Source: Klebsiella variicola
Lineage (GTDB): Bacteria > Pseudomonadota > Gammaproteobacteria > Enterobacterales > Enterobacteriaceae
Reading direction: 5' to 3'
Assembly: GCF_000828055.2 (NCBI RefSeq)
Contig: NZ_CP010523.2
Location: 4,092,001-4,156,000, forward strand
Length of the DNA stretch: 64,000 nt
Shown: positions 8,656-22,605 of the stretch, piece after piece
Position numbering within the stretch: the stretch's first letter is position 1
Layout: the number at the start of each line of letters is the position of its first letter
The notes under the pieces: generated by a model
What the model was told of the DNA's origin: nothing
What the model saw: the letters and a program-made list of their open reading frames with translations, nothing else
The model's database searches: none
Made by a program: the position numbers and the translations under genes

Positions 8656-8714
8656 AATTTGCCCCATGGATGAGGATAAATGAATCAAAGGGCCCGTCGC
8701 CGGACCCGTTATTT

Positions 8715-9797
8715 TTATTGCGCGTTCAGGTCAATGCGTACGACGCTGTCCGGGCCTTTTGTGGAGTGGTCTTTATTGAAGGGCTGTTTGACGGTGACAA
8801 ATAGCGTCTGACCATCGGCGGAAAGCAGCAGGCTGTTGGGATTGGCCGGCAGCGCCCAGCTTTTCTTCAGCGTGTAGCGGCTGGCGTCAAGGCTGATAAC
8901 CTTGCCGGATTCACGCTGCGAAATATAAATTTCGTGGCGTTTCTTATTGAACTGCACTGCCAGCGAATCGCCGACGTCGAGCTGTTTAAGCAGCTTGCCG
9001 CTGTGGATATCCAGCACCAGAGTGGTTTTCGCTTTCGAGTTATCAGTCACAAACAGGCGGCCGGTGTCGCTATCTTCGGCCATATTAAGCAGCAGCGCTG
9101 GCTTGTCGCCCAGCGGCTTCCAGCGCTGTTCAATGCGCTGGTTATGTGGGTTGATCACCAGAATTTCACCGCTGCCGTTAGCGGCGTACACGCGACCGGT
9201 TTGTGCGGAGTAGTGCAGGCCGGTCATCCATTTACCGGTATTTTTAATCCGTGTTTTCAGCTTCAGAGTGGTGGCGTCAACCACCCAGATTTGCGCCGGG
9301 TCGGCGACCGCACCAACGTAGAGAGTATTGTTCAGCAACAGCAGCTGACGGGCCCCATAAGGGCGACCTTTTTCATTGCGCTCGCTGAACAGCAGGCGGT
9401 TTTTTACCTTGCCGGTGGCGGTGTCGATAGCGCTGATGCCGCCGTCCAGCGAATTGCTGACATACAGCGTTTTACCCTCCGCAGAGAGCTGTAAAGCGAA
9501 GTTTTTCAGATCGGTGTGCGTCAGGCCGATGGTATTGAGGGTGTGCGGATCCAGTGTGTAGACCGCCCCGCCCTGCACATTTTTAAAGCCTTCGGCGCTG
9601 GCGACGTACAGCGCATCACCCTGCGGGCTTAACGCCATCTCGTACAGCCCTTCCGCTAGCTGGCGCTGCAGCGGTTGCGCCACGTTAGGGGCTGGCGAGT
9701 CGACAACCGGTTGGGAAACGGCAGAGGAATGAGGCGTCGCGCAGCCGCTTAACGCCGCGCTGATGGCCAGCGTCAACGTCGGAAGTGTGTATTTCAT
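8715..9797 (-). CDS. YncE-like beta-propeller lipoprotein
   Basis: A 360-residue secreted protein starting at ATG 9797 with AGGG upstream; an earlier frame start at 9821 lacks a site. The signal ends in a lipobox (AALSGC, cysteine near residue 19), so it should be lipid-anchored. The body is a repeat of beta-propeller blades (for example GGAVYTLDPHTL, GGISAIDTATGKV, AQIWVVDATTLKL, SGEILVINPHNQR) like E. coli YncE. YncE is iron-regulated, sits near a TonB receptor gene, and is periplasmic rather than lipidated. Here the protein precedes a TonB-dependent receptor on the same strand with a Fur box upstream. A role in siderophore uptake is inference. Confidence 0.85.
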   Translation of the reverse strand: MKYTLPTLTLAISAALSGCATPHSSAVSQPVVDSPAPNVAQPLQRQLAEGLYEMALSPQGDALYVASAEGFKNVQGGAVYTLDPHTLNTIGLTHTDLKNFALQLSAEGKTLYVSNSLDGGISAIDTATGKVKNRLLFSERNEKGRPYGARQLLLLNNTLYVGAVADPAQIWVVDATTLKLKTRIKNTGKWMTGLHYSAQTGRVYAANGSGEILVINPHNQRIEQRWKPLGDKPALLLNMAEDSDTGRLFVTDNSKAKTTLVLDIHSGKLLKQLDVGDSLAVQFNKKRHEIYISQRESGKVISLDASRYTLKKSWALPANPNSLLLSADGQTLFVTVKQPFNKDHSTKGPDSVVRIDLNAQ

Positions 9798-10194: not shown

Positions 10195-11679
10195 TTAATA
10201 GCGCACCATCACCGACTTCAGCTCCGTATAATCATCGATAAACGCGCTGCCGAATTCGCGCCCGATGCCCGAGCCCTTCATGCCGCCGAACGGTACCGCC
10301 GGGTCGAGGAAGGTATGCATATTGACCCACACGATGCCGGCCTCAATCGCCTCCGAGTAGCGCAGCGCCTGGCGAATATTATCGGACCAGACGCTGGCCG
10401 CCAGGCCATATGGCGACGCATTGATCCGCGCCAGCGCCTCTTCTTCACTGCGATAGCCGATAAAGCTGCATACCGGACCGAAGGTCTCCTCGCGCATCAG
10501 GGTGCTCTCTTCGCTGCGGACTTTGACCGCAGTCGGCTGCAGGAAATACCCCTCTCCCGGCAGCGCTTCGCCGCCGCAGACGATGGTATCCCCCTCGTCG
10601 CGCGCGGTCTGGATCAGTTTGAGCACTTTCTCGTACTGCTGGCGGTTGGCCAGCGGCCCCATCAGCGTCTGTTCATCCAGCGGCGATCCCGGCGCGAAGG
10701 CGCTGAGCTTGTCTTTCAGCAGCGCCAGCACTGCATCCAGTTTGCCCTGCGGCAGATAAAAACGCTCCGCAGCGGCGCAAATCTGCCCCTGGTTCAGGTA
10801 GCCGGCTTCAATAATGCCGTTGACCATCGCCTCCGGCGTCAGGTCATCGAGGAACAGCGCGGCGTTTTTGCCCCCCAGTTCAAGGGTCACCCGTTTACCT
10901 GACGCGCAGGCCGACTGCTGGACTTTTTCACCGGTGGCCACCGAGCCGGTGAAGCTCACCTTGGCGCAGGCCGGATGCGTCATCAGCCGCTGGGCAATCT
11001 CGCCGCCGGTGCCGTTGACCACGTTAATCACCCCATCCGGGATACCCACCGCTTTCGCCAGCTCCGCCACGCGCAGCAGCGTCAGCGGCGTATACTCGCT
11101 CGGTTTGAGGACGATGGTGCAGCCGCAGACCAGGGCCGCCGCCAGCTTCCAGATGGCAATCATGATGGAGAAGTTCCACGGCACGATGCCGACCACCACC
11201 CCCAGCGGCTGGCGGCGGGTGAAGGCGGTATATTTCTCACCGTTCATGGAGGGGAGCGAGACATCCAGCGTTTCGCCGGTGACTTTCCCCGCCCAGCCGG
11301 CGAAGTAGCGCAAAAACGCCACCGATTGATCCAGCTCCAACATCCGCGCCAGCATGATGGTCTTGCCGGAGCAGAGACTTTCCAGCTGCGCCAGCGCTTC
11401 GCGATGCTCAGCCAGGGCATCCGCCAGCTTCAACAGCAGCGTACCGCGCGCCAGCGTCGGCATCTCACGCCACTGACTGAACGCCTGGCGGGCGCTCTCC
11501 ATGACGCGATCCGCCTGATCCACATCCGCTGCCGTCACCTCAGCAATTGCCTGACCGGTGGCCGGGTTAACCACCGCGAACGGCGCGCCGTGGCCCGCCT
11601 CACGTTGACCGGCAATAAACTGCCCGTGTGGCTGGCGTAAAAAGGCGGTCACTTCCGCCAGTAAGGTTATCTCGCTCAT
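10195..11679 (-). CDS. Aldehyde dehydrogenase, phenylacetaldehyde dehydrogenase-like
   Basis: A 494-residue NAD-dependent aldehyde dehydrogenase starting at ATG 11679; the frame runs further upstream, but homologues begin near MSEITLLAEV. The catalytic set is intact: Asn169 in PWNFS, Lys192 in LKPSE, Glu267 in LELGG and Cys301 in NQGQICAAAERF. The C-terminus (PFGGMKGSGIGREFG, ELKSVMVRY) resembles E. coli FeaB, which oxidises phenylacetaldehyde. It is divergent from the PuuB-like amine oxidase, with 159 bases between them that carry the shared CTTCCGGACGATATTCA motif. It probably oxidises the aldehyde produced by that oxidase. The exact substrate is not shown. Confidence 0.92.
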   Translation of the reverse strand: MSEITLLAEVTAFLRQPHGQFIAGQREAGHGAPFAVVNPATGQAIAEVTAADVDQADRVMESARQAFSQWREMPTLARGTLLLKLADALAEHREALAQLESLCSGKTIMLARMLELDQSVAFLRYFAGWAGKVTGETLDVSLPSMNGEKYTAFTRRQPLGVVVGIVPWNFSIMIAIWKLAAALVCGCTIVLKPSEYTPLTLLRVAELAKAVGIPDGVINVVNGTGGEIAQRLMTHPACAKVSFTGSVATGEKVQQSACASGKRVTLELGGKNAALFLDDLTPEAMVNGIIEAGYLNQGQICAAAERFYLPQGKLDAVLALLKDKLSAFAPGSPLDEQTLMGPLANRQQYEKVLKLIQTARDEGDTIVCGGEALPGEGYFLQPTAVKVRSEESTLMREETFGPVCSFIGYRSEEEALARINASPYGLAASVWSDNIRQALRYSEAIEAGIVWVNMHTFLDPAVPFGGMKGSGIGREFGSAFIDDYTELKSVMVRY

Positions 11680-11838
11680 CGTCAGCACCCGTTTTTTTAG
11701 CAAAGTTGGCCTATCACAGCACGGTTGCTCTGCGCCGCCCATCGTTCTAAAGAACGTCATTCTTCCGGACGATATTCAACGCCCGCATGGCGTGCTGTGA
11801 TGAGGACCTTGAGCCAGGCAAGACCACAGGGTAACGCG
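11680..11838. promoter_or_regulatory. Divergent promoter region with MoaR-type operator
   Basis: The region between the aldehyde dehydrogenase and the oxidase contains CTTCCGGACGATATTCA at 11762-11778. Beside it is ATCGTTCTAAAGAACG at 11741-11756, whose GTTCT/AGAAC arms form a palindrome. The first motif recurs before the APC permease (13854) and in shortened form before the SDR/moaF operon (20289). Confidence 0.6.
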
Positions 11839-13140
11839 ATGAACATTAAAATCGATGCGCTGAACTACTACGGCGCGACGAAGAAATACCACCTCCATTT
11901 CCCGGCGCTGCGGGAAGATATTGAAGCCGACGTGGTGATTATCGGCGGCGGCTTCTCGGGGATTAACACCGCCCTTGAGCTGGCGGAACAGGGTATCACC
12001 AACGTGGTGGTGCTGGAGGCGCGCCATCTTGGCTACGGCGGTACCGGGCGCAACGGCGGCCAGGTGATGGCCGGTATCGGTCACGACATCGAAGCGGTGA
12101 AAAAGCACGTCGGCAAAGAGGGGCTGGAGACGCTGTTTAAAATCGCCAACCTCGGCGCGGGCATCATTCGCGAACGCATCCGCAAATACCATATCGACGC
12201 CGATTTCGTCCCCGGCTACGGCTATCTCGCCTATAACCAGCGGCAGCTCAAAACGCTGCGCCAGTGGGAGAAGGAGTTTAAAGCCGCTACCCCGGATGAA
12301 GAAATCGAACTGTATACCGGCAAAGAGGTGCAGCAGGTGGTTGGCTCCGAGGTCTACTGCGGCGCGCTGAAACATATGGGCGGCGGGCAGATCCATTCGC
12401 TCAATATGCTGCTCGGTTCGGCGCAGGCCGCCCATTCGCTGGGGGTAAAGATCTTCGAATCCTCGCCAGTGGTGGAGGTGAATTACGGCAAACAGGTGCG
12501 GGTACGCACCGCGATGGGCAGCGTCAAAGCCGCCAAACTACTGTGGGCCTGCGACAGCTTCCTCAACAATATGGAGCCGGAGATCTACAACAAGACGCTG
12601 GTGACCTACTCCTATCAGGTGTCGACCGAGCCCCTTTCCGATGAACTGATCGAGCGCATCAGCCCACTGCGCGGCGCCTTCAGCGATATTCGCCCGGTGA
12701 TTAACTACTACCGCGTCACCCGGGAAAATCGCCTGCTGTTCGGCAGCGCGACTCGCTTTGTGGAATATACGCCGAACGATTTCGCCGCCTGGAATCGCAC
12801 CCTGCTGGCGGAGGTCTTCCCCTATCTGAAGGATGTGAAGATCGATTTCGCCTGGGGCGGGCCGATGGCCTGTAGCGCCAACCTGTTCCCGCAGATCGGC
12901 ACCCTACGCGATCACAACAACGTCTTTTACGTCCAGGGGTACTCCGGCTTCGGCGTCACCCCGTCGCACATCGTGTGCAAAATCCTCGCCGAAGGGATCA
13001 ACGGCGGTTCCGACCGCTATCGCCTGCTGAGCAGCATCCCCCACGCGACCATCCACGGCCGTGACAGCCTGCGCTTGCTATTAGTCACAGCCGGAAAATT
13101 GATGCATCAAACCGCCGGTTTCTGGAAAGGCCGGAGTTAA
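11839..13140 (+). CDS. FAD-dependent amine oxidoreductase, PuuB-like
   Basis: A 433-residue DAO-family flavoprotein starting at ATG 11839. The dinucleotide-binding motif VVIIGGGFSGINTALELAE is at about residues 32-50, followed by GYGGTGRNGGQVM, a hallmark of gamma-glutamylputrescine oxidase PuuB and relatives. The C-terminal FYVQGYSGFGVTPSHI block matches the PuuB segment before its second FAD-contact region. Such enzymes oxidise a primary amine to an aldehyde with release of ammonia and hydrogen peroxide. A cupin gene follows after 13 bases and an aldehyde dehydrogenase is divergent, so amine to aldehyde to acid is the likely route. No glutamylputrescine synthetase is seen, so the substrate may be a free amine. 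Confidence 0.9.
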   Translation: MNIKIDALNYYGATKKYHLHFPALREDIEADVVIIGGGFSGINTALELAEQGITNVVVLEARHLGYGGTGRNGGQVMAGIGHDIEAVKKHVGKEGLETLFKIANLGAGIIRERIRKYHIDADFVPGYGYLAYNQRQLKTLRQWEKEFKAATPDEEIELYTGKEVQQVVGSEVYCGALKHMGGGQIHSLNMLLGSAQAAHSLGVKIFESSPVVEVNYGKQVRVRTAMGSVKAAKLLWACDSFLNNMEPEIYNKTLVTYSYQVSTEPLSDELIERISPLRGAFSDIRPVINYYRVTRENRLLFGSATRFVEYTPNDFAAWNRTLLAEVFPYLKDVKIDFAWGGPMACSANLFPQIGTLRDHNNVFYVQGYSGFGVTPSHIVCKILAEGINGGSDRYRLLSSIPHATIHGRDSLRLLLVTAGKLMHQTAGFWKGRS

Positions 13141-13153
13141 CCAGGAGAACGCT

Positions 13154-13519
13154 ATGCACGCTTTTAAACTTAAACACCCGGTACCTGACCTGCAGCCGAT
13201 CGGCAGCGTCAGCCTGCTCGGCGCGACGCCGACCGCGGGAGACCCGCAGGTGGCCGGGGCGATGATCTACGGCGAGCCGCAGGACGCCTTTACCTGCGGA
13301 CTGTTTTCGTCCACTGAGGGGAGCTTTACCATGACCTATCCGTTTACCGAGCATGCCACCGTGCTGGAAGGCGAAGTGGAGCTGACCGTCGCTGGTGGCG
13401 AGCCGCAGCGCTTTGCGCCGGGCGACAGCTGGTTTGTTAAACAGGGCACCGAAGTGGAGTGGAAAATCCTGACGCCGCGCTTTGTGAAGCACTACCTGGC
13501 GAACGTCGAGACGCGCTAA
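13154..13519 (+). CDS. Small cupin-domain protein
   Basis: A 121-residue single-domain cupin with CAGGAG upstream of ATG 13154. The second cupin motif is visible (GDSWFVKQGTEVEWKI), and the segment FTEHATVLEGEVELTV corresponds to the first motif with a poorly conserved metal site. It is of the DUF861/EutQ type often found beside amine oxidases. It lies 13 bases after the PuuB-like gene and must be co-transcribed. Its function is unknown; small cupins of this kind may bind a metal or a small intermediate. Confidence 0.85.
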   Translation: MHAFKLKHPVPDLQPIGSVSLLGATPTAGDPQVAGAMIYGEPQDAFTCGLFSSTEGSFTMTYPFTEHATVLEGEVELTVAGGEPQRFAPGDSWFVKQGTEVEWKILTPRFVKHYLANVETR

Positions 13520-13561
13520 CACGCTGATAATGCCCGGCGGCGCAGGGAGCGCACAGGGGGA

Positions 13562-13744
13562 CCCGGAGGCGGCGCATTGCGCCTTCTCCGGGCTACCAAA
13601 TCGCACAGCGCTGTAGCCCCGGTAAGCAGCAGCGCCACCGGGGGTTTTGAGGCCGCCAACACCGGCGTTTCAGTCAGCATGGTGAATAAATTAAAGGCAG
13701 GCCGCACGGACCGTAGGCCGGATAAGGCGCAGCCGCCATCCGGC
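13562..13744. repeat. BIME with three REP units
   Basis: Three imperfect GC-rich palindromes of the enterobacterial REP type are present: 13562-13595 (cccggaggc to ccgggctac), 13613-13644 (gtagccccgg to caccgggg) and 13713-13744 (gtaggccggataaggcgc to catccggc). Confidence 0.75.
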
Positions 13745-13853
13745 AGAAATACGCGCAACGTGGCAAGACGGATGGCCCCGGTTTTCGGGGTCATGTTGTT
13801 TATCCACCGCGACATTCATCGACTGCGTCACAGAATCATGCGCCGCCCTCCAC

Positions 13854-13870
13854 CTTCCGGACGATATTCA
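13854..13870 (+). promoter_or_regulatory. Shared amine-regulon motif upstream of APC permease
   Basis: CTTCCGGACGATATTCA here is identical over 17 bases to the copy at 11762-11778. It lies 88 bases before the permease start codon. A MoaR-type activator is the likely binder, by inference. Confidence 0.55.
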
Positions 13871-13958
13871 TTGAGCAGGATGCCCGCCTAAATTATGACT
13901 ATCCGGGAGTGGCGCTTGCTATTCCCTGCCCTACCCCATTATTGTGCAGAGGTTGACT

Positions 13959-15458
13959 ATGTTTAGTAACAGACTCGCCAGCCATCTTGAGCGCGGCGTC
14001 GTCGGCTTCCCGACCACCCTCGCCAGCTCCGTCGGGCTGATCATGGCCAGCCCGGTGATCCTGACGGTCACCAGCGGCTTCGGCATGGGCGGCGATACCT
14101 TCGCGCTGGCGGTGCTGCTGGCCTTTATTATGATGCAGGCGCAGGTCACCACCTTTGCCGAGGCGGCGACGCTCATTCCTACCACCGGTTCGGTGTACGA
14201 CTATATCTCCTGCGGCATGGGCCGCTTCTTCGCTATCACCGGCGCGCTGTGCGCCTATCTGATCGTCCATATTTTCGCCGGGACGGCGGAGACGATCCTG
14301 GCGGGCATTATGGCGCTGGTAAACTTCGAATCGATCAACGCTCAGATGGCCGCCCACCAGAACACCTGGATGGTGGGTGTCGGCATGGTGGTGATTTTCG
14401 GCTTGCTCAACGCCATCGGCGTGGAAATCTTCGGCAAGGTCGAAGTGGTGCTGACCTTCGGCATGTGGACCACACTGACTATTTTCGGCCTGTGTGGCAT
14501 TTTTATGGCGCCGGTGACTCATCTTTCCGGCTGGTTCGGCACGCCGCTGAACATCAGCGATATCAACGGTCTGTTCGGCTATATCGGCATGGCGATGTTT
14601 ATGTTCGTCGGCTGCGAACTGGTGACGCCGATGGCGCCGGAGATTAGACAGGCCCACCGCACTATTCCGCGGGCGATGGCGCTGGGCCTGCTGGGAGTCG
14701 CCAGCTGCATGTTTATCTACGGCGCGGCGATCAACCGCCAGGTGGAGAATACCGTGCTCGACGCGGCCAACAACGTCCATCTGCTGGATACACCGATGGC
14801 GATCCCGGCCTTCGCCGAACGGGTGATGGGCCACGCCGGCCAGTACTGGTTGGGGGTCGGGCTGCTGCTGGCCGGCTGCGCCACCATCAATACGCTGATG
14901 GCCGCCGTGCCGCGTATTATCTACGGCATGGCACTGGACGGCGCGCTGCCCCGCTTCCTGACCTGGCTGCACCCGCGCTTTAAGACGCCGGTGATCGCCA
15001 TCGCCATCGGGGTGGCGATCCCCTGCCTGCACGCCTGGTATCTGAACGGCGATCTGGACCGCATCGTGCCGCTGATCCTCGCCGCGGTCTGCGCCTGGGG
15101 CGTCGCCTATCTGCTGGTGACGCTGTCGGTGGTGATGCTGCGTATCCGCCGCCCGGACCTGCCGCGCGCCTACCGCTCGCCGTGGTTCCCGCTGCCGCAG
15201 ATTATCTCCAGCGTCGGGATCATCATCGCTATCGTCAATATCACGCCACCGGGGATGGACAGCCGCCAGGTGCTGGTGCCGTTCGGCATTATGCTCGGCC
15301 TGACCGCCGCCTACGCCCTGTTCTGGACGGTGTGCGTGCAGCGCGTCAATCCGTTCAAGCCGCTGGTAGTGGAAGAGGTGGTGGAGCGCGCCATCAACAA
15401 TTATGAAAAACAGACCCGCGGGGAGATGACGCCAGATGTCCTCCGTCCCCTGGTTTGA
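13959..15458 (+). CDS. APC-superfamily amine/amino acid permease
   Basis: A 499-residue inner-membrane transporter with about twelve hydrophobic segments, starting at ATG 13959 with GAGGT upstream. The first helix GFPTTLASSVGLIMASPV and the later MFVGCELVTPMAPEIRQAHR are typical of APC transporters related to PuuP-type amine importers. The end overlaps the following DUF3156-like gene by 23 bases. The upstream motif shared with the oxidase and SDR/moaF promoters suggests it imports the amine used by this region. The substrate is inference. Confidence 0.88.
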   Translation: MFSNRLASHLERGVVGFPTTLASSVGLIMASPVILTVTSGFGMGGDTFALAVLLAFIMMQAQVTTFAEAATLIPTTGSVYDYISCGMGRFFAITGALCAYLIVHIFAGTAETILAGIMALVNFESINAQMAAHQNTWMVGVGMVVIFGLLNAIGVEIFGKVEVVLTFGMWTTLTIFGLCGIFMAPVTHLSGWFGTPLNISDINGLFGYIGMAMFMFVGCELVTPMAPEIRQAHRTIPRAMALGLLGVASCMFIYGAAINRQVENTVLDAANNVHLLDTPMAIPAFAERVMGHAGQYWLGVGLLLAGCATINTLMAAVPRIIYGMALDGALPRFLTWLHPRFKTPVIAIAIGVAIPCLHAWYLNGDLDRIVPLILAAVCAWGVAYLLVTLSVVMLRIRRPDLPRAYRSPWFPLPQIISSVGIIIAIVNITPPGMDSRQVLVPFGIMLGLTAAYALFWTVCVQRVNPFKPLVVEEVVERAINNYEKQTRGEMTPDVLRPLV

Positions 15459-15978
15459 GACGCCGTTAATGAACGCGGTGCAGCGCGATCTGGCGGGCTG
15501 GCCCTGCGAAAAGCTGAGCGAACGCAGCGCGCTGCTGCGCTTGAACGACGCCACCGCCGTGACCTTCAGCGTGCGTCAGAAGCGGCTGTTTATGGCCAGC
15601 ATTCACAGCTGCGAGTTTGTCGTCGAGGGGCCGGTGACCCGGCCCGTGCGCGGTATCATTCGCGCCCATCAATCCGGCTGGTGGAAACGCCAGCCGATCC
15701 GCTTTATCGGCGGCAAAGGCAGCGAGGAACTCGCCGGCTATCTCAACGGTTTTCCTAATCTCCAGCAGACCTTAAGCGAGCTGGATTACCGCCGCTTTTC
15801 GCTGACCTTTGATAGTAGCGGCTGGCGCTGCAGCATTGAACCCTGGGCCGCCAGCGAAGTGGTCTGTAAAATGCCGCCGCTGCGCCGTTATCTGCGGCTG
15901 GAAGCGCAGCAGCGGATGCTGCTGCTCAGCGTGCTGGCGATGATTAATCAGGCGGTAAGTCAGTGGATGGATGAGTGA
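15436..15978 (+). CDS. Uncharacterised protein, DUF3156-like
   Basis: A 180-residue soluble protein overlapping the end of the APC permease gene by 23 bases in another frame, which suggests translational coupling. No signal peptide or membrane segment is seen. Notable features are paired tryptophans (GWWKRQP) and a C-terminal leucine-rich helix (QQRMLLLSVLAMINQAVSQW). I believe it matches DUF3156, a family found next to APC permeases, but this is from memory and moderately sure. It could be a cytoplasmic partner or regulator of the transporter. Its real function is unknown. Confidence 0.75.
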   Translation: MSSVPWFETPLMNAVQRDLAGWPCEKLSERSALLRLNDATAVTFSVRQKRLFMASIHSCEFVVEGPVTRPVRGIIRAHQSGWWKRQPIRFIGGKGSEELAGYLNGFPNLQQTLSELDYRRFSLTFDSSGWRCSIEPWAASEVVCKMPPLRRYLRLEAQQRMLLLSVLAMINQAVSQWMDE

Positions 15979-15994
15979 GCGGATGCCCGCGCCA

Positions 15995-16357
15995 TCACGC
16001 GCCGATCAGGCTCTCAAGGGGGATGCCGAACTGCGCATGAAGCCGGCGAATCATCGGGAGCGTCAGGTTGCGCGTACCATTGAGAATTTCATAGACACGA
16101 TTCGATTTACCAATCGCCGGCTCCAGATCTTTGACGGTCAGCCCCTGCTGCTCCATGCGAAACTTGATCGCCTCTATCGGCGTCGGCGGCTCGATGGGAT
16201 AGTGCTTTTTTTCATACTCAGCAATCAGCAGGCACATCACCTCAAAAAAATCGCCCTCTGGCGTATCAAGCGCTGGTTCATTATCAAAAAAAGGTTCAAC
16301 CGCGCTTAGCGCGGCTTCGTAATCTCGTTCAGTGCGGATAGGTTTTATTTTCATCAT
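15995..16357 (-). CDS. higA: HigA-type antitoxin, HTH protein
   Basis: A 120-residue antitoxin. Residues 1-55 form an acidic N-terminal region expected to wrap the toxin. Residues 70-118 form a Cro/CI-type helix-turn-helix (KDLEPAIGKSNRVYEILNGT). The ATG at 16357 follows directly on the TAA of higB with no gap; its ribosome site GAGAGGAAG lies within the last higB codons, so translation is coupled. HigA proteins neutralise HigB and repress their own promoter. Palindromes at the upstream promoter fit that. The toxin-first order is normal for higBA. Confidence 0.88.
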   Translation of the reverse strand: MMKIKPIRTERDYEAALSAVEPFFDNEPALDTPEGDFFEVMCLLIAEYEKKHYPIEPPTPIEAIKFRMEQQGLTVKDLEPAIGKSNRVYEILNGTRNLTLPMIRRLHAQFGIPLESLIGA

Positions 16358-16660
16358 TTACTTCCTCTCAATCGTCTCAGCGTTTATCTCGTCATATTCC
16401 TTATGCGAACCGATAAACTTAACGAACACCCACCCCCGCAGATAAGCAACGGCTACGATTAACCGGTAATCATTTCCTTTAATGTTGAATACCACCCGCT
16501 TATTTTTCAATATGCTTGCGCTGCGGTATTGGTCCTTTATCTCCGCCGGGGTTTTCCAGTCTGCTTTTGTCGCTTCGTCTACCCAGGCCTTTAGCGGTTG
16601 TTCAGCGTCGGGATTCTCCGCCCAGAAGTCCCTTAAGGTTTTCACTGAGATTATCTTCAT
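16358..16660 (-). CDS. higB: HigB-type mRNA interferase toxin
   Basis: A 100-residue RelE-superfamily toxin of the HigB_toxin type that cleaves mRNA on the ribosome. Family-typical segments include KNKRVVFNIKGNDYRLIVAV and the C-terminal KFIGSHKEYDEINAE, where the HKEYD motif holds the catalytic region as in E. coli HigB. The ATG is at 16660. There is no Shine-Dalgarno sequence, and the predicted transcription start coincides with the A of this ATG, so the mRNA may be leaderless. It forms a bicistron with higA. The module lies between amine-region genes with its own promoter. Confidence 0.9.
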   Translation of the reverse strand: MKIISVKTLRDFWAENPDAEQPLKAWVDEATKADWKTPAEIKDQYRSASILKNKRVVFNIKGNDYRLIVAVAYLRGWVFVKFIGSHKEYDEINAETIERK

Positions 16661-16666
16661 GTGCAG

Positions 16667-16695
16667 AGACTAGTCCCATTTCGGGACTAAGTAAA
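16667..16695 (-). promoter_or_regulatory. higB: higBA promoter with operator in the spacer
   Basis: On the reverse strand TTTACT (16690-16695) and TAGTCT (16667-16672) are separated by 17 bases. The spacer is filled by the inverted repeat AGTCCC-N5-GGGACT (16672-16688). HigA bound there would block RNA polymerase. The -10 ends six bases before the higB ATG. Confidence 0.65.
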
Positions 16696-16698
16696 GAA

Positions 16699-16719
16699 AA
16701 AGTCCCGTACCGGGACTTT
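16699..16719 (-). terminator. Terminator of the HDAC/MFS operon
   Basis: AAAGTCCCG-TAC-CGGGACTTT is a perfect 9-bp stem. On the reverse strand the stem runs into TTTTTCTTT, making an intrinsic terminator 25 bases past the HDAC-like stop. The stem repeats the GTCCC/GGGAC half-sites of the higBA operator, so it may also bind HigA. Confidence 0.7.
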
Positions 16720-16743
16720 AGCGATCACCGTGAGCGTGAGCGA

Positions 16744-17859
16744 TTACTGCAGGCCAAACCGTTGCGCCAGCCGATCGAGAGCCTGCCTCTGGAACTGCGC
16801 AAACTCCGCCCGCGGCTGCTGCTGCTGAATAAATTCCAGCAGCGGATCCTGGACCTCGGTACGGATACCGCTCAGCGTTTCCATCACCGCCAGGCCGCAG
16901 AACGGCACGTAGGATTCGGCGTAGCCGCCCTCGTGCACCATCACCAGTTTCCCGCCGCACAGGCGATCCGCCGCCTGCTGGACCTGTTCGGTCATCGCCC
17001 GGAAGCTGTCGCTATGTAGCTGCATCCGCGCTAATGGATCCATGGCGTTGGCGTCATAGCCGCAGGCGATAATAATCAGCTCCGGCTCAAAACGCGCCAG
17101 CGCAGGAATGACGATAGTTTCCAGCGCATAGCGCCAGCTGTCATCCCCCGCCCCGGCCAGCAGCGGAATATTAATGTTGTAACCTTCGCCCGCGCCCACG
17201 CCGCGATCGTCCTCGCCGGCGTAGCCCGGCGGGAAGCAGCCGTCCTGATGCAAGGAAATAGTCAGTACGTCGTCGCGCTGCAGGTAGATATGCTGGGTGC
17301 CGTTGCCGTGGTGAACATCCCAGTCAATGATCGCCACCTTGCCCAGCCCCAGCTGCGCTTTCGCCCGCTCGACGGCAATGGGAATATTGGCGAGGAAACA
17401 AAATCCCATCGACTGGTCCGGCAGACAGTGGTGTCCGGGCGGGCGCGACAGCGAATAGGCATTATCCAGCTCCCCCTCCAGCACCGCTTCCACCGCCGCA
17501 CAGGCCAGCCCGGCGGAAAGACAGGCGATTTCATAACTGCCCGGCCCCAGCGGCGCCTCTTTGCCGAGCATGCCGCCGCCGTTATCGCTGATCGCCTTGA
17601 AGCGCTCCAGATAGCTGTCGGGGTGGATCCGCCGCAGGTCCTCAAGGCTCGCCGGCGCCGCGCTGCGCAGCGCCAGCTGCGGCGTCAGCCCGGAGACGTC
17701 CATCAGGTTTTTCATCCGCCGTTTGGTCTCCGGCGATTCAGCATGACCGCCACCGGCGGGCGGCTGCACCCACCCGCCCACCGGCAGCGTCACCGCGTGC
17801 AGACCGGTACTGTGCCAGAAACAACGTTCATCAAAGAAGAAACCGGTTTTTCTTTTCAC
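16744..17859 (-). CDS. Class II histone deacetylase / acetylpolyamine amidohydrolase-like enzyme
   Basis: A 371-residue zinc hydrolase. The start is GTG at 17859 with a strong GGGAGGA site; an upstream ATG at 17907 lacks one. The catalytic residues are all present: His143-His144 in RPPGHHCL, zinc ligands Asp181 and His183 in DWDVHHGNG, the third ligand Asp269 in ACGYDANAMDP, and the transition-state tyrosine in HEGGY near residue 313. Bacterial members remove acetyl groups from small amines such as N-acetylpolyamines. It follows an MFS gene after 16 bases. In this amine region a role in deacetylating an imported N-acetyl amine is plausible but inferred. Confidence 0.9.
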   Translation of the reverse strand: MKRKTGFFFDERCFWHSTGLHAVTLPVGGWVQPPAGGGHAESPETKRRMKNLMDVSGLTPQLALRSAAPASLEDLRRIHPDSYLERFKAISDNGGGMLGKEAPLGPGSYEIACLSAGLACAAVEAVLEGELDNAYSLSRPPGHHCLPDQSMGFCFLANIPIAVERAKAQLGLGKVAIIDWDVHHGNGTQHIYLQRDDVLTISLHQDGCFPPGYAGEDDRGVGAGEGYNINIPLLAGAGDDSWRYALETIVIPALARFEPELIIIACGYDANAMDPLARMQLHSDSFRAMTEQVQQAADRLCGGKLVMVHEGGYAESYVPFCGLAVMETLSGIRTEVQDPLLEFIQQQQPRAEFAQFQRQALDRLAQRFGLQ

Positions 17860-17875
17860 TCTATCCTCCCGTGGG

Positions 17876-19048
17876 CTAACTCTTCCCGGCGGCGGACGCC
17901 GCCGCAATCAAAATCAATGACAGCAGCGCGCAGACGCCTGCCGCCGCCAGCAGCGGGTCGGCGCTGGCAAAACGCTGCAGTAAGGCCCCGGCTAAGGCCG
18001 GACCGGCCGCCATGCCGCCGCCGATCACCAGATTGATGCTGTTCATCAGCCGGCCGTTGCTATCGAGCCCGGCCACACGGGCAAGAATAAAGGGCAGCAC
18101 GAAGGTCCAGGTGAACTTAAACAGCAGCGCCGCGATGGCGTAGCGCACCAGCAGCGGCTGGCCGATCAGCAGCCCAACGCTGACGATCAGCAGGCCGTAG
18201 CCCAGCCACACCGGTAAACGATCGGCCCGCTGGGTACCCCGCAGCGCCGCGCCGCCGGCGCCGATAATGCCGCAAACCGTCGCCGCCGCCAGCACCAGAC
18301 CGACCTGCGTCGGGGTTAGCCCCGCCGCGCTGCCGATGGTGCCGATAAAGGTCCACACTGCGCTGAGGCTGATATAGAAAGTGAGTACCGCCAGCACCGC
18401 CAGCGCCTGACGCCACAGCGCCGTCGACGGCTGCTGGTGGGAGGCAGAGAGCGGTTGAAAGCGCGGAGGGAAAGCGGACACCAGCGGCAAACAGCAGAGC
18501 ATAATGGCGGCGAGGATCAGATAAACCACCTTCAGGCCAAAGGTCGCGAACAGGCCGGGCAGCACCAGCAGGCCAAGCATGCCTAACAGCAGTTGCCCGA
18601 GCACCCAAAAGGCGTAGACCCGCGACGGGTTCGGCGTCCCCGCCGCGCAGCTGATACACAAAATCATCAGCGTGCCGCCCGCCAGCGAGGCGAGAAAGCG
18701 CGCCGCCAGCAGCGTCTCGTACTGGGTGACCACCGCCGAAGCGAGGTTGGCGGTCAGAAACACCACCCCGGCCATCAGGGCGACCCGCCGCCAGTCGAGG
18801 CGGCTCATCCACCACCACGCCGGGAGCGTCGCCAGACTCATCGCCCCCAGCTCCGCCGAAAATAGCCAGCCGATCTGTCCTGGTTTAAGCTGCCATTCGC
18901 TGGCCAGCTGCGCCGCCACCGCCGGCGCGGTCATTAATATCCCCGGCGCAATGGCGGCAAAAATCACGATCGCCGCCAGCAAACGCAGGGAGACCACCAG
19001 CCCGGCGGGCCGGGAAAGCGCATTATCAGTGAGAGGGGTACTCGACAT
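17876..19048 (-). CDS. MFS transporter
   Basis: A 390-residue inner-membrane protein with about twelve spans, taken to start at ATG 19048 (MSSTPLTDNAL). The segment WWWMSRLDWRRVALMAG resembles the MFS loop between helices 2 and 3. It is encoded just before the HDAC-like enzyme and after moaR on the same strand. A short hairpin with a T-run lies between moaR and this gene. It may import an acetylated amine or export a product; nothing in the sequence decides the direction. Confidence 0.85.
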   Translation of the reverse strand: MSSTPLTDNALSRPAGLVVSLRLLAAIVIFAAIAPGILMTAPAVAAQLASEWQLKPGQIGWLFSAELGAMSLATLPAWWWMSRLDWRRVALMAGVVFLTANLASAVVTQYETLLAARFLASLAGGTLMILCISCAAGTPNPSRVYAFWVLGQLLLGMLGLLVLPGLFATFGLKVVYLILAAIMLCCLPLVSAFPPRFQPLSASHQQPSTALWRQALAVLAVLTFYISLSAVWTFIGTIGSAAGLTPTQVGLVLAAATVCGIIGAGGAALRGTQRADRLPVWLGYGLLIVSVGLLIGQPLLVRYAIAALLFKFTWTFVLPFILARVAGLDSNGRLMNSINLVIGGGMAAGPALAGALLQRFASADPLLAAAGVCALLSLILIAAASAAGKS

Positions 19049-19067
19049 CGTAGGGCGTGCTCCGGTC

Positions 19068-19088
19068 AAAAAAGCCTCCCCCCGGAGG
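19068..19088 (-). terminator. Short hairpin with T-run between moaR and the MFS gene
   Basis: On the reverse strand, CCTCCGGGGGGAGG is followed by CTTTTTT. The stem is only about five base pairs, so termination may be partial, allowing read-through from moaR into the transporter and deacetylase genes. Confidence 0.4.
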
Positions 19089-19165
19089 ATCCTCCAGGGA
19101 GTGATACCCACAGGCATCAGGAAAACGCCGTGCTGCCACGGCGCGCGCGGGATGCGAAAGTCAGA

Positions 19166-19849
19166 TCACAGATGCAGCGTACGCTGAGCGGCCGGCATCC
19201 AGGTTCGGGAAACCAGTTCGGTACGATTGACCACTTCGGTCTTGGCGAAAATGTTGCGCAGGTGCGTTTTTACCGTCGAGAGCGAGATATCCAGCTGGCG
19301 GGCAATCAGCTTATTGCTGGCGCCTTCGCGCACCATGCCGACGATTTCCCGCTCTTTCGCCGTCAGGATGGCGGGCAGGTCATCGTCTTCCTGCAGACAG
19401 TCGCGAATGGCCAGCTCCACCAGCGGCAGCACCGCCTGAGCCCGCTGGCGCTCTTCGCTGGAGAAAGGCACGTCGCGCATCAGCGAGATACCGGCGATGA
19501 TCCGCCGCTCGCGGCGAATAAAGATCTCGGTCATGTCGCGTACGTTATTCGGCAACATGAATTCATGATAGTAATGGCGGTTGCGGTCGCAGAGCCGCGG
19601 CGTCATCGCCGCCACGGTGGTGTTCTGGTGGCTAAAATGCGAGGGCAGAAGCGGATCCAGCGGCTGGAAGTTTTCCAGATATTGTTGGTGCGTATTATCG
19701 GAAATATTATGCAATATATAGCTTTCGGGTTTTAAACGATTATTTACTCGATAAAAGACCGCTGAAGTCAGTGGAATTAGCTGGGAAATAGTCTGTAAAC
19801 AACGGGCTATTATCGCATCATTACGGCTGGCTTTTAACAAAGCAGACAT
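19166..19849 (-). CDS. moaR: LuxR-family transcriptional activator, MoaR-like
   Basis: A 227-residue regulator starting at ATG 19849 behind a GGGGAGG site. The C-terminal LuxR helix-turn-helix is clear at about residues 157-215 (LTAKEREIVGMVREGASNKL, then QLDISLSTVKTHLRNIFAKT). The N-terminal domain is not a response-regulator receiver, since no phospho-acceptor pattern is seen. Position and type match MoaR of Klebsiella aerogenes, the positive regulator of the monoamine regulon, encoded next to moaEF. It is divergent from an SDR/moaF pair. A CRP-like site lies about 107 bases upstream of its start. The name is assigned by recognition and context rather than alignment. Confidence 0.82.
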   Translation of the reverse strand: MSALLKASRNDAIIARCLQTISQLIPLTSAVFYRVNNRLKPESYILHNISDNTHQQYLENFQPLDPLLPSHFSHQNTTVAAMTPRLCDRNRHYYHEFMLPNNVRDMTEIFIRRERRIIAGISLMRDVPFSSEERQRAQAVLPLVELAIRDCLQEDDDLPAILTAKEREIVGMVREGASNKLIARQLDISLSTVKTHLRNIFAKTEVVNRTELVSRTWMPAAQRTLHL

Positions 19850-20358
19850 GATAGGGCCTCCCCGTCGAGATGATGGTACATGACACATGGATGACTACTG
19901 ATAATTGAAGCATACATTTCACATTTAAGTAACACAATCATTAACATATTAACAATGTGATAGCCGTTACATAATTTTCAACAAACCATTGTTATATAAA
20001 GAATTTAAAAAACACACCTGCCATGCTTTACGATAGCCGCGTTAAAATATAAACAAAAAAGATTAACACCCGGCGTACCTGCCCCTGGTGATAAAAAAAA
20101 CCTATCCCCGACGCGTCATTCTCATCCTAAAGAACGATGGATTTCTGTTTTTTTTCACTTATACCCTTAACAGGATGCAATTAATTTTCGCCGCGGCGTA
20201 ATCATGTGATGACGCCTGACCCGCTGTTGCCGAAATAATGAGAACGGCGCCCTGTGAGAGAGATCCATTAACCGCCACGGCTATCGTTCTTCCGGACGAT
20301 AGCCGGGACCTGACGCGCTTTTTAAGGTAATCGAAGACCCCATAACAGGAGAGAGCGA
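19850..20358. promoter_or_regulatory. Divergent regulatory region between moaR and the SDR/moaF operon
   Basis: A 509-base AT-rich stretch without a supportable gene. It contains a CRP-like site at 19956-19971 and CTAAAGAACGATGG at 20127-20140, which resembles part of the operator at 11741. The motif CTTCCGGACGATA lies at 20289-20301, 58 bases before the SDR start. The last is preceded by TATCGT, so TATCGT-N8-ACGATA (20282-20301) forms an inverted repeat. Confidence 0.65.
19956..19971. promoter_or_regulatory. CRP-like site upstream of moaR
   Basis: TGTGA-TAGCCG-TTACA matches the CRP consensus TGTGAN6TCACA at nine of ten conserved positions. It would make moaR sensitive to catabolite repression. 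Confidence 0.5.
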
Positions 20359-21135
20359 ATGGCGAGAGTCGTGGTGATCACCGGCGGTGGAACCGGAATT
20401 GGCGCCGCCTGCGCGCGGCTGATGTGCGCCGCGGGCGACCGGGTGTTTATTACCGGACGGCGCAAAGCGCCATTGCAGGCTGTCGCCGATGAGACCGGCG
20501 CCACGGCGCTGGTGGGCGATGCCGCCGACGGCGAGGTCTGGGGTCAGCGGCTGCTGCCGGCGATCCTCGACCAGGCTGGCGGTATTGATGTCCTCATCTG
20601 CAGCGCCGGCGGGATGGGCAACAGCCCCGCCGCCGAGACCAGCGACAGCCAGTGGCGCGAGGCGCTGGACGGCAATCTCACCAGCGCGTTCGCCAGCGTT
20701 CGCGCCTGTCTGCCCTCGCTCATTGCCCGCCGAGGCAATGTCCTGTTTGTCGCCTCCATCGCCTCACTCGCCGCCGGGCCGCAGGCCTGCGGCTACGTCA
20801 CCGCCAAACACGCCTTAATCGGTCTGATGCGTTCCGTCGCCCGCGATTACGGCCCACAGGGGGTACGCGCCAACGCCATCTGTCCCGGCTGGGTCACGAC
20901 GCCGATGGCGGATGAAGAGATGTGCCCGCTGATGGAGGCAGAAGGGCTATCACTGACGGAGGCTTATCAGCGGGTCTGTCGCGATGTTCCGCTGCGCCGC
21001 CCCGCCAGCCCCGAGGAGATAGCCGAGGCCTGTCAGTTTCTCTGTTCGCCGCAGGCCGCCATCATCAGCGGCGCCACGCTGGTCGCCGACGGCGGCGCCA
21101 GTATCGTCGATGTTCCCACTCTGGCGTTTGCCTAA
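20359..21135 (+). CDS. SDR-family oxidoreductase of the moaEF locus
   Basis: A 258-residue short-chain dehydrogenase/reductase with AGGAGAGAG before ATG 20359. The cofactor motif TGGGTGIG is at residues 8-15, and the active site has Ser133/Ser136, Tyr146 and Lys150 (YVTAK). The C-terminal AIISGATLVADGGASI is the usual SDR end. It is 25 bases upstream of moaF. In Klebsiella aerogenes the corresponding operon was called moaEF; that moaE is not the molybdopterin synthase subunit, so I leave the symbol blank. It may reduce or oxidise an aldehyde, ketone or alcohol arising from monoamines. Confidence 0.88.
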   Translation: MARVVVITGGGTGIGAACARLMCAAGDRVFITGRRKAPLQAVADETGATALVGDAADGEVWGQRLLPAILDQAGGIDVLICSAGGMGNSPAAETSDSQWREALDGNLTSAFASVRACLPSLIARRGNVLFVASIASLAAGPQACGYVTAKHALIGLMRSVARDYGPQGVRANAICPGWVTTPMADEEMCPLMEAEGLSLTEAYQRVCRDVPLRRPASPEEIAEACQFLCSPQAAIISGATLVADGGASIVDVPTLAFA

Positions 21136-21160: not shown

Positions 21161-21952
21161 ATGACTTCAGAAGCCGTATTTATCCAGGTCGGCGCGCTGG
21201 CCGATGGTTTTGCGCCACACGGTAATTTACTCGCCACCACCAGCCTGCCCGCCGGCGAAACCTTTACTTTTTATGTCGCGGGCAGTAAGCCGCAGCAGTT
21301 GGTTATCGAAGATGACCAGACGCTCAGCTGGAACGGCAAGCGCGCGCCCTGGCGGGCAACCGCCCTGCGCCCGGACATTCTGTTTATCGACTTCCTTGAC
21401 CCGGAGCGGGATAACGCCAGCATTAGCGCGGTATGCAACCTGACACAGCGCAACGCCACCCTGGTCTACGGCCAGCTGCCGGACGAAGCCGCCGCGCGGC
21501 TGGACGCCTTCAGCCGGGTGGAGCAAGGCCTGCCGCTGACCGCGGTAGAGGCACGGTTTGTTTTTGCCCGCCTGGATGAGCAGTCGGGGCCGCTGCCGGA
21601 CTTTACCGATGCGCTTATTGGCATGCGCAATCAGTACACCTACAGCCCGACCGAGCGCTATGAGCACATCTATCTCAACGACAATTTTTACACCTGGCAG
21701 TGTCTGGACGGTGTGGAAAAGGGGCTGGCGGATGTCGATCGCTGCCACTATGTGCAGGTGGCTGAGGATCTCTATCTGTTCGTCTGGCGGGAGAAAATCA
21801 TTCCCACGCTGGGGGTGATCCTGATCGATCTGCAGCAGATGCGCACCGACGGCAAGATCATGGGCTATCAGGGCAGCGATTTCGGCGCCCTCAGCAATTT
21901 CCCGGTCGGCGCCAGCGCGAAGATCCTCAACGTCACCCGCCATCAGGAATAA
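21161..21952 (+). CDS. moaF: MoaF family protein
   Basis: A 263-residue soluble protein starting at ATG 21161 after CAGGAGC. I recognise the two-part MoaF architecture: an N-terminal domain with FTFYVAGSKPQQL and SWNGKRAPWRATALRPDILF, and a C-terminal domain with YSPTERYEHIYLNDNFYTWQ and VWREKIIPTLGVILIDL. The family was named in the Klebsiella monoamine regulon. Databases call it molybdenum cofactor biosynthesis protein F, but no firm biochemical role is known. It is probably a small-molecule-binding beta-barrel protein. It is co-transcribed with the SDR under the MoaR-type motif. Confidence 0.85.
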   Translation: MTSEAVFIQVGALADGFAPHGNLLATTSLPAGETFTFYVAGSKPQQLVIEDDQTLSWNGKRAPWRATALRPDILFIDFLDPERDNASISAVCNLTQRNATLVYGQLPDEAAARLDAFSRVEQGLPLTAVEARFVFARLDEQSGPLPDFTDALIGMRNQYTYSPTERYEHIYLNDNFYTWQCLDGVEKGLADVDRCHYVQVAEDLYLFVWREKIIPTLGVILIDLQQMRTDGKIMGYQGSDFGALSNFPVGASAKILNVTRHQE

Positions 21953-22120
21953 AGGGGCGCCGCCGGGCACGCTTTCAGGCACCACATCCGTCATTTCGCC
22001 GGGTGGCGGCTGCGCCTGACCCGGCCTACGGTCCGAGCAGCCAGTCATTAATTTACCCACTTGTGCGACTGAAACTGCCGGTGCTGACGGCCTCAAAATC
22101 GCTGAGACGTTCCCGGAAGG

Positions 22121-22325
22121 CCGCATGGATGCGGGCTGAGGGCCGTGTTTTGCACGGACGCTGCCTCGGCCCGACCCGAAGCCTGCAGGGATAAGTCGAA
22201 GGCACCACGCAGTGGCGATTTTGCTGGCCGGAGCCCGGGGGTACAGGGGGCGGCGGCGACTGGCCGCCCCCTGTGCGCTCCCTGTGCCATGAGTGACATA
22301 ACGCAGAAAAAATATCGGGAGCGCA
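22121..22325. repeat. Unexplained multi-stem element
   Basis: Several strong stems lie in about 200 bases: CCGCAT-GG-ATGCGG (22121-22134), ACAGGGGGCGG paired with CCGCCCCCTGT (22243-22253 with 22264-22274), and TGCGCTCCC paired with GGGAGCGCA (22274-22282 with 22317-22325). None fits the REP pattern. It could be an intergenic repeat or a structured RNA. Confidence 0.45.
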
Positions 22326-22354
22326 ATCAGCCCGGAAATAGCACAGGAGTGGTA

Positions 22355-22559
22355 GCCCTGCTAAGCGCAGCGCGAGCAGGGGCATTTCCGGTTGCGCCGT
22401 CATTTCGCCGGGTGGCGGCTGGCGCCTTAACCGGCCTACGGGTCCCTTTCACAGACTGACACCGCGTAGGCCCGGTAAGCGCAGCGCCACCGGGCGATGG
22501 CATCAGGCACGGACCCGCTTTAGTGCCGGGTGGCGGCTGGCGCCTGACCCGGCCTGCGG
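22355..22559. repeat. BIME cluster of REP units
   Basis: A hairpin GCCCTGCT to AGCAGGGGC (22355-22383) is followed by three REP palindromes in alternating orientation: 22407-22440 (gccgggtggcggctggcgcc start), 22466-22495 (gtaggcccggtaagcgcagc start) and 22525-22559. Confidence 0.7.
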
Positions 22560-22605
22560 TCCGCGCCATTTGTCCATTCTCTCCCCGCCGGGGAGAGGGA
22601 GTGAC

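Follow-up and report, generated by a model that had tools for sequence, protein, structure and literature searches.

A candidate MoaR operator shared by amine catabolism promoters in Klebsiella variicola and its relatives

Introduction

The window analysed here, a stretch of 64,000 nucleotides from Klebsiella variicola (contig NZ_CP010523.2, positions 4,092,001 to 4,156,000), encodes an amine oxidase dependent on flavin adenine dinucleotide (FAD), an aldehyde dehydrogenase, an APC-family permease and the moaE-moaF pair, together with a LuxR/GerE-type regulator that we take to be MoaR, a name resting on synteny with atsBA and moaF. Among named genomes, that of Klebsiella pneumoniae ATCC 13883 is nearest to the one analysed. 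One short sequence motif recurs before these genes, and the locus raises the question of which protein acts on it and which genes that protein controls. A preliminary description placed the motif before three promoter regions and proposed that it is the MoaR binding site and extends the monoamine regulon to an oxidase, a dehydrogenase and a permease. In Klebsiella aerogenes, moaR controls atsBA, maoCA, moaEF and tyn, according to a passage of PMC6813237 that cites a 1996 review. The analysis below indicates that the motif is very probably an operator through which MoaR activates the amine oxidase, dehydrogenase, permease and moaEF genes.

The motif and its copies in the window

The 13 to 17 bases shared by the promoter regions form the right half of a 20-bp interrupted palindrome, approximately TMTCGTYCTTnnGRACGATA, of which the window contains five copies (operators 1 to 5; Table 1). 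As the preliminary description reported, the 13-mer CTTCCGGACGATA lies before the oxidase/dehydrogenase pair (11762), the permease (13854) and the moaE-moaF genes (20289), the 17-mer CTTCCGGACGATATTCA at 11762-11778 is identical to 13854-13870, and 20282-20301 reads TATCGT-N8-ACGATA. The window has no other exact match to the 13-mer (8 matches at two or fewer mismatches versus 1.2 expected). These three sites are real, and the two sequences regarded as extra half-sites, ATCGTTCT at 11741 and AGAACGAT at 20131, are also present, each as half of a further full operator (operators 1 and 4 respectively), which brings the number of sites to five. Operators 1 and 2 overlap by 5 bp.

The five sites score 17.8-27.7 with a 20-bp matrix whose training set includes sites of the window and of near relatives; in 100 order-1 Markov simulations of the window, places scoring at least 15 average 0.07 per 64 kb and the top single score is 17.9. 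Another matrix, built from 24 unique sites in Serratia loci and in genomes outside the window's genus, ranks the same five first to fifth in the 64 kb (25.4, 25.3, 19.8, 17.7 and 13.5), the next place scoring 8.6. Words of 13 bases do recur by chance, and one further exact copy of the 13-mer is present in the 5.52 Mb genome, within a frame judged by eye to be transketolase-like; yet with five sites against 0.07 expected, and with a matrix free of the window's genus ranking them first, a chance likeness of GC-rich intergenic DNA was rejected, and the conservation observed across genera leaves it practically no probability. Over nine loci, 31 of the 35 columns of 11740-11774 are invariant, compared with 10/40 and 15/40 in the flanks, and the 20-bp sites before the permease, moaE and ats genes have 14, 16 and 11 invariant positions respectively. 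Three loci are duplicates (L069=L013, L071=L015 and L076=L019) and are kept in all site, -10 and placement counts unless unique sites are specified. By these comparisons the putative operator is real and conserved.

A terminator or attenuator hairpin in RNA might also take the form of an inverted repeat, and the copy at 20282-20301, which would follow the old end of atsA, folds perfectly and extends to 10-bp arms around an 8-base spacer. All six outer positions can pair in only 7 of 52 unique sites, however, the copies at 11755 and 13847 cannot pair, and the sites lie upstream of genes; the hairpin was rejected on the pairing count and is extremely unlikely.

Promoter architecture

At all five window operators a -10-like hexamer follows the end of ACGATA by 20-22 nt (Table 1), and the Serratia permease promoters (L016-L020) carry TATAGT at 22 nt. 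In an average of 70 downstream sequences, agreement with the -10 hexamer is highest at 22 nt (2.97 of 6) and next highest at 27 nt (2.40). The best -35 match is 3/6 at each of the five window promoters. Given the spacing of the -10-like box, the operator centre lies ~42-45 bp before the predicted start, adjoining the -35 region. LuxR/TraR-type activators use a 20-bp lux box, and class II activators of the LuxR type sit near -43, beside -35.

Sites that abut -35 are also used by repressors, and MoaR might repress through them. Such repression is very unlikely, since -35 matches of at best 3/6 are typical of activator-dependent promoters and a centre near -43 is where class II activators sit. 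In the same passage of PMC6813237, again citing the 1996 review, moaR is termed a positive regulator.

On sequence comparison, the stretch 11740-11774 consists of two operators that overlap, each belonging to one of the divergent promoters. Among 15 listed loci (L069 duplicating L013), all 11 with the aldehyde dehydrogenase keep the outer site (18.7-24.2) together with a TGTGAT, TGGGAT or TGAGAT box, and in all four without a divergent dehydrogenase (L013, L068, L069 and L086) the outer site scores 14.6-15.7 and the box is gone. Where the ats and permease sites face moaR, no box at fixed spacing is seen by eye in 24 loci; autoregulation of moaR via the ats site was rejected for this reason, and moaR, the MFS transporter and the deacetylase are not assigned to an operator. 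No operator is oriented toward the deacetylase and MFS genes, which possibly share one transcript with moaR.

Distribution among genomes

MoaR relatives (E ≤ 1e-20) are found in 26 of 295 genomes of the family, representing 14 of 154 genera; the genomes surveyed are related to one another, and Fisher values, which ignore this relatedness, carry no weight here. The permease (E ≤ 1e-150) is present in exactly these 26 genomes and no other, and the oxidase (E ≤ 1e-150) in 30, namely 25 of the 26 and five that are MoaR-less. Regulator, permease and oxidase occur together in 25 of the 26 MoaR genomes and are the constant core of the predicted regulon; the dehydrogenase, moaEF, atsBA and deacetylase/MFS genes are each absent from some loci. 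The proposed extension of the regulon is partly supported: one operator, whose occurrence follows the LuxR-type regulator from genome to genome, stands before the oxidase, dehydrogenase, permease and moaE-moaF promoters, and MoaR is its probable binding protein.

Operator matches (model R1, E ≤ 0.1) occur in 26/26 MoaR genomes and 7/269 others, and as the 33 sites of R1 come partly from MoaR genomes the first figure is partly built in and the second is not. Of the seven matches outside MoaR genomes, four score 12.6-13.9 bits and come from genomes smaller than 1 Mb. None of the five oxidase loci without MoaR has an operator in its 19.5 kb (best 6.5-9.1), and none has the permease. Across 40 stretches (837 kb), 98 of 101 matches scoring at least 14 lie no more than 450 bp upstream of an oxidase, permease, ats or moaE gene, a count that takes in the training loci and the three duplicates; in 25 held-out loci the corresponding figure is 38 of 41, with matches in 23 of the 25. 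Of the two held-out loci without a match, one is L087 and the other L074, where the permease lies on a separate contig with its own site scoring 27.8. Operators are also found in Salmonella loci L014 and L015.

Several observations weigh against an operator of MoaR, in addition to the relatedness of the genomes and the partly built-in count. Three ordinary-size MoaR-less genomes carry matches at 15.5-17.2 bits. There is no operator in the 20 kb of L087, the second MoaR-like copy of genome G184, no site before the permease of L072 (the permease sites of other loci score 17.8-29.5), and none before the Serratia oxidase genes of L016-L020 or the oxidase genes of L098 and L099. Operator 3 is the weakest of the five in the window and its left half is degenerate; the -10 signal, though real, is modest on average; and a -10-like box is missing at several sites, among them the moaR-proximal ones of L017, L018 and L020 and that at 10568 of L072. 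The scan near tynA suggested in the preliminary description adds a further point, as no operator is present in 19 kb around paaZ-tynA of the window genome and the cited passage of PMC6813237 lists maoCA/tyn under moaR.

The Serratia oxidase genes do without the site, so another regulator may exist, and the operator could belong to another, unlinked transcription factor of amine catabolism, MoaR acting elsewhere. But the site tracks moaR genome by genome and is missing from the five MoaR-less oxidase loci, in many loci it separates moaR from the divergently oriented permease or ats genes, and a 20-bp inverted repeat beside -35 suits a GerE dimer; we consider an unlinked factor unlikely.

Upstream of the oxidase genes of L016-L020, L098 and L099, ~65 bp before the start, is a different conserved palindrome, AATGTCCCTAAGGGGACAT (and variants), which suggests a different regulator at Serratia-type oxidase promoters. 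In L087 of G184 (~8137-9677), the second MoaR-like gene is beside a dehydrogenase matched by tblastn in two pieces.

The tynA region and matches elsewhere

The tynA scan covers the present operator in the window genome only, where the best place near paaZ-tynA scores 13.0, or 6.7 with the other-genera matrix, and lies within a frame of 171 aa adjacent to a PaaA/PaaC gene. In this genome direct control of tynA through the 20-bp site is improbable, and because paaZ-tynA is without a site the operator does not account for the classical maoCA effect.

Model R1 returns 11 rows in the window genome, six on the five window sites, with operator 5 as the top match, and five elsewhere. Four of the latter (L104, L107, L108 and L109) were rejected as lying inside open frames, as were matches G128:C26 and G060:C20 in other genomes; the fifth, at 2673271, is intergenic before a CRP-like frame, scores 16.1 and is read as chance. 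Operator-like places in two MoaR-less genomes (L133 1501 and L136 1500) have matrix scores of 23.6 each; of the R1 matches in G274 and G283, that in G274 is inside a minus-strand frame just past an aminotransferase-like gene, and that in G283 lies 14 bp upstream of an MFS gene, with a LacI-type regulator adjacent.

Loss and relocation of atsBA

In other Klebsiella and relatives (L009-L012, L066 and L067) the order is moaR-atsBA-moaEF, with sulfatase maturase and arylsulfatase genes in the middle, and a site of the operator 4 type precedes atsB in L009-L012, L014, L015, L066 and L067. atsA is present in 7 of 20 genomes of the genus and is not in the window genome. Because atsBA has been lost here, the ats operator at 20120 now fronts moaEF. 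In genome G074, atsBA is on another contig than moaR, with a predicted operator 115 nt upstream of atsB, and the operator there travels with the ats operon; G074 atsB and atsA are each ~77% identical to the K. pneumoniae genes.

Functions of the oxidase, deacetylase and regulator

Cloning primers for Salmonella SEN2971 (PMC8070173, Table 3) match the oxidase ends of L014/L015 at 18/18 and 19/19 positions; on the window oxidase, which is likewise 1302 bp long, the figures are 15/18 and 18/19, and the window protein is ~90% identical to the L014/L015 oxidases. By primer match, length and identity, the window oxidase is an ortholog of SEN2971, the published tyramine oxidoreductase, and putrescine, which the preliminary description named among the amines to be tried, is for this reason unsupported as a substrate. 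The sections of PMC8070173 that deal with SEN2971 describe it as tyramine-induced, report poorer growth on tyramine once it is deleted, and show that the recombinant protein oxidises tyramine. The surrounding Salmonella region is described in part of PMC7397319 as encoding an FAD oxidoreductase, a phenylacetaldehyde dehydrogenase, an APC permease, a sulfatase, a maturase and LuxR- or LysR-type regulators, and a passage of PMC5311848 gives Salmonella pathogenicity island 13 (SPI-13) as SEN2960-SEN2977. The HDAC-like protein of the window has its best PDB match in 9glb (850 bits over the whole length), which is KpHdaH and deacetylates peptides, as stated in a portion of PMC11532494.

The GerE domain of the regulator bears out the earlier claim that a LuxR-type protein is encoded in the region. 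For its N-terminal part, where an autoinducer-binding domain would be expected in a LuxR-type activator, Pfam gives no match at E values up to 1 beyond the helix-turn-helix region, and its similarity to RhlR is weak, with an alignment covering profile positions 98-210.

Discussion

MoaR most likely activates the oxidase, dehydrogenase, permease and moaEF genes and, in relatives, atsBA. MoaR is read as an activator because of the operators and their conservation, the -10 spacing without a good -35, the co-occurrence with moaR, and the orthology of the oxidase to SEN2971; we infer MoaR as the binding protein, activation as the effect, and an amine or its product as the signal. A MoaR dimer would bind the 20-bp inverted repeat beside -35 via its C-terminal GerE helix-turn-helix and would bring RNA polymerase to promoters whose -10 and -35 sequences are poor, like LuxR at the lux box. 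The window genes switched on in this way would be those for the FAD amine oxidase and its cupin, for the aldehyde dehydrogenase divergent from them and for the APC permease, together with moaEF; relatives would add atsBA. Between them, the products would take up amines of the tyramine type and convert them by oxidation to aldehyde and acid, and would free sulfate from aryl sulfates.

It is possible, if rather doubtful, that the direct MoaR regulon is a scavenging module for conjugated aromatic amines and is not centred on tynA. The permease and MFS transporter would carry out import, AtsA desulfation and the HDAC-like protein removal of N-acetyl groups, MoaE and MoaF would act on a further group, and the oxidase and dehydrogenase would finish the pathway; with one portable operator, sulfatase and amine genes could be added, lost or moved under one regulator. 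Tyramine reportedly derepresses arylsulfatase, an older observation that a scavenging module, if real, would explain directly.

Shared with the MoaR monoamine regulon of K. aerogenes are a LuxR-type regulator by atsBA and moaEF and the placing of the putative operators before ats and moaEF; the window genome differs in having no operator at paaZ(maoC)-tynA and no atsBA, and in the addition of oxidase, dehydrogenase and permease. The tyramine region of Salmonella SPI-13 at tRNA-Phe similarly groups oxidase, dehydrogenase, permease, LuxR-type regulator, sulfatase and maturase, and its oxidase is orthologous; Klebsiella adds moaEF, MFS and deacetylase genes, and no operator is named in the portions of PMC8070173, PMC7397319 and PMC5311848 consulted. 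Shared with the LuxR/TraR activators are the GerE domain and a 20-bp inverted repeat beside -35, whereas the MoaR N-terminal domain has no Pfam match and only weak RhlR similarity, and the box sequence differs.

What is new is the operator and the redrawn regulon; the kind of regulation is already known. No description of the operator was found in a literature search that missed the original subscription papers, and an earlier description is possible. A regulator named decades ago gains a candidate operator, and the monoamine regulon becomes sequence-defined, testable promoter by promoter, and linked to the Salmonella tyramine genes, with a reason for tyramine control of arylsulfatase.

Neighbouring features

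Table 1. Putative operators, -10-like boxes and genes of the amine region (window positions)
Feature	Position	Strand	Remarks
MoaR operator 1 (putative), CATCGTTCTAAAGAACGTCA	11740..11759	-	would serve aldehyde dehydrogenase; 16/20 to palindrome; matrix 21.7, other-genera matrix 19.8
MoaR operator 2 (putative), CGTCATTCTTCCGGACGATA	11755..11774	+	would serve FAD oxidase; matrix 20.0, other-genera matrix 17.7
MoaR operator 3 (putative), CCTCCACCTTCCGGACGATA	13847..13866	+	would serve APC permease; matrix 17.8, other-genera matrix 13.5
MoaR operator 4 (putative), TCTCATCCTAAAGAACGATG	20120..20139	+	atsBA operator, orphaned; matrix 22.6, other-genera matrix 25.4
MoaR operator 5 (putative), TATCGTTCTTCCGGACGATA	20282..20301	+	would serve moaE-moaF; matrix 27.7, other-genera matrix 25.3
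-10-like TGTGAT, aldehyde dehydrogenase promoter	11713..11718	-	21 nt beyond operator 1
-10-like TGTGAT, oxidase promoter	11796..11801	+	21 nt past operator 2
-10-like TAAATT, permease promoter	13889..13894	+	22 nt past operator 3
-10-like TATACC, ats promoter	20160..20165	+	20 nt past operator 4
-10-like TAAGGT, moaE promoter	20323..20328	+	21 nt past operator 5
Aldehyde dehydrogenase	10195..11679	-	best NCBIfam model StyD phenylacetaldehyde dehydrogenase, below its cut-off; start codon selected in the present analysis
FAD-dependent amine oxidase (DAO), ortholog of Salmonella SEN2971/STM3128	11839..13140	+	primer and length match
EutQ-like cupin	13154..13519	+	behind oxidase
APC-family permease	13959..15458	+	E ≤ 1e-150 in the same 26 genomes as MoaR
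DUF3156 protein	15436..15978	+	overlaps permease end
HDAC-like deacetylase and MFS transporter	16744..19117	-	downstream of moaR
moaR, LuxR/GerE-type regulator	19166..19849	-	227 aa from conserved ATG; GerE 1.3e-16
Junction left by atsBA loss, between moaR and moaE	~20238..20252	.	atsBA present at this place in L009, L066 and L067
moaE-like short-chain dehydrogenase (SDR)	20359..21135	+	
moaF	21161..21952	+	Pfam MoaF N- and C-terminal domains

Between the permease and the deacetylase (15995-16660) are a small leftwards HTH_3 gene (15995-16357) and a short frame that by eye is of the HigB/RelE toxin type. Two long GC-rich intergenic stretches, at 13530-13780 and 22000-22600, contain repeat-like phrases that appear similar by eye.

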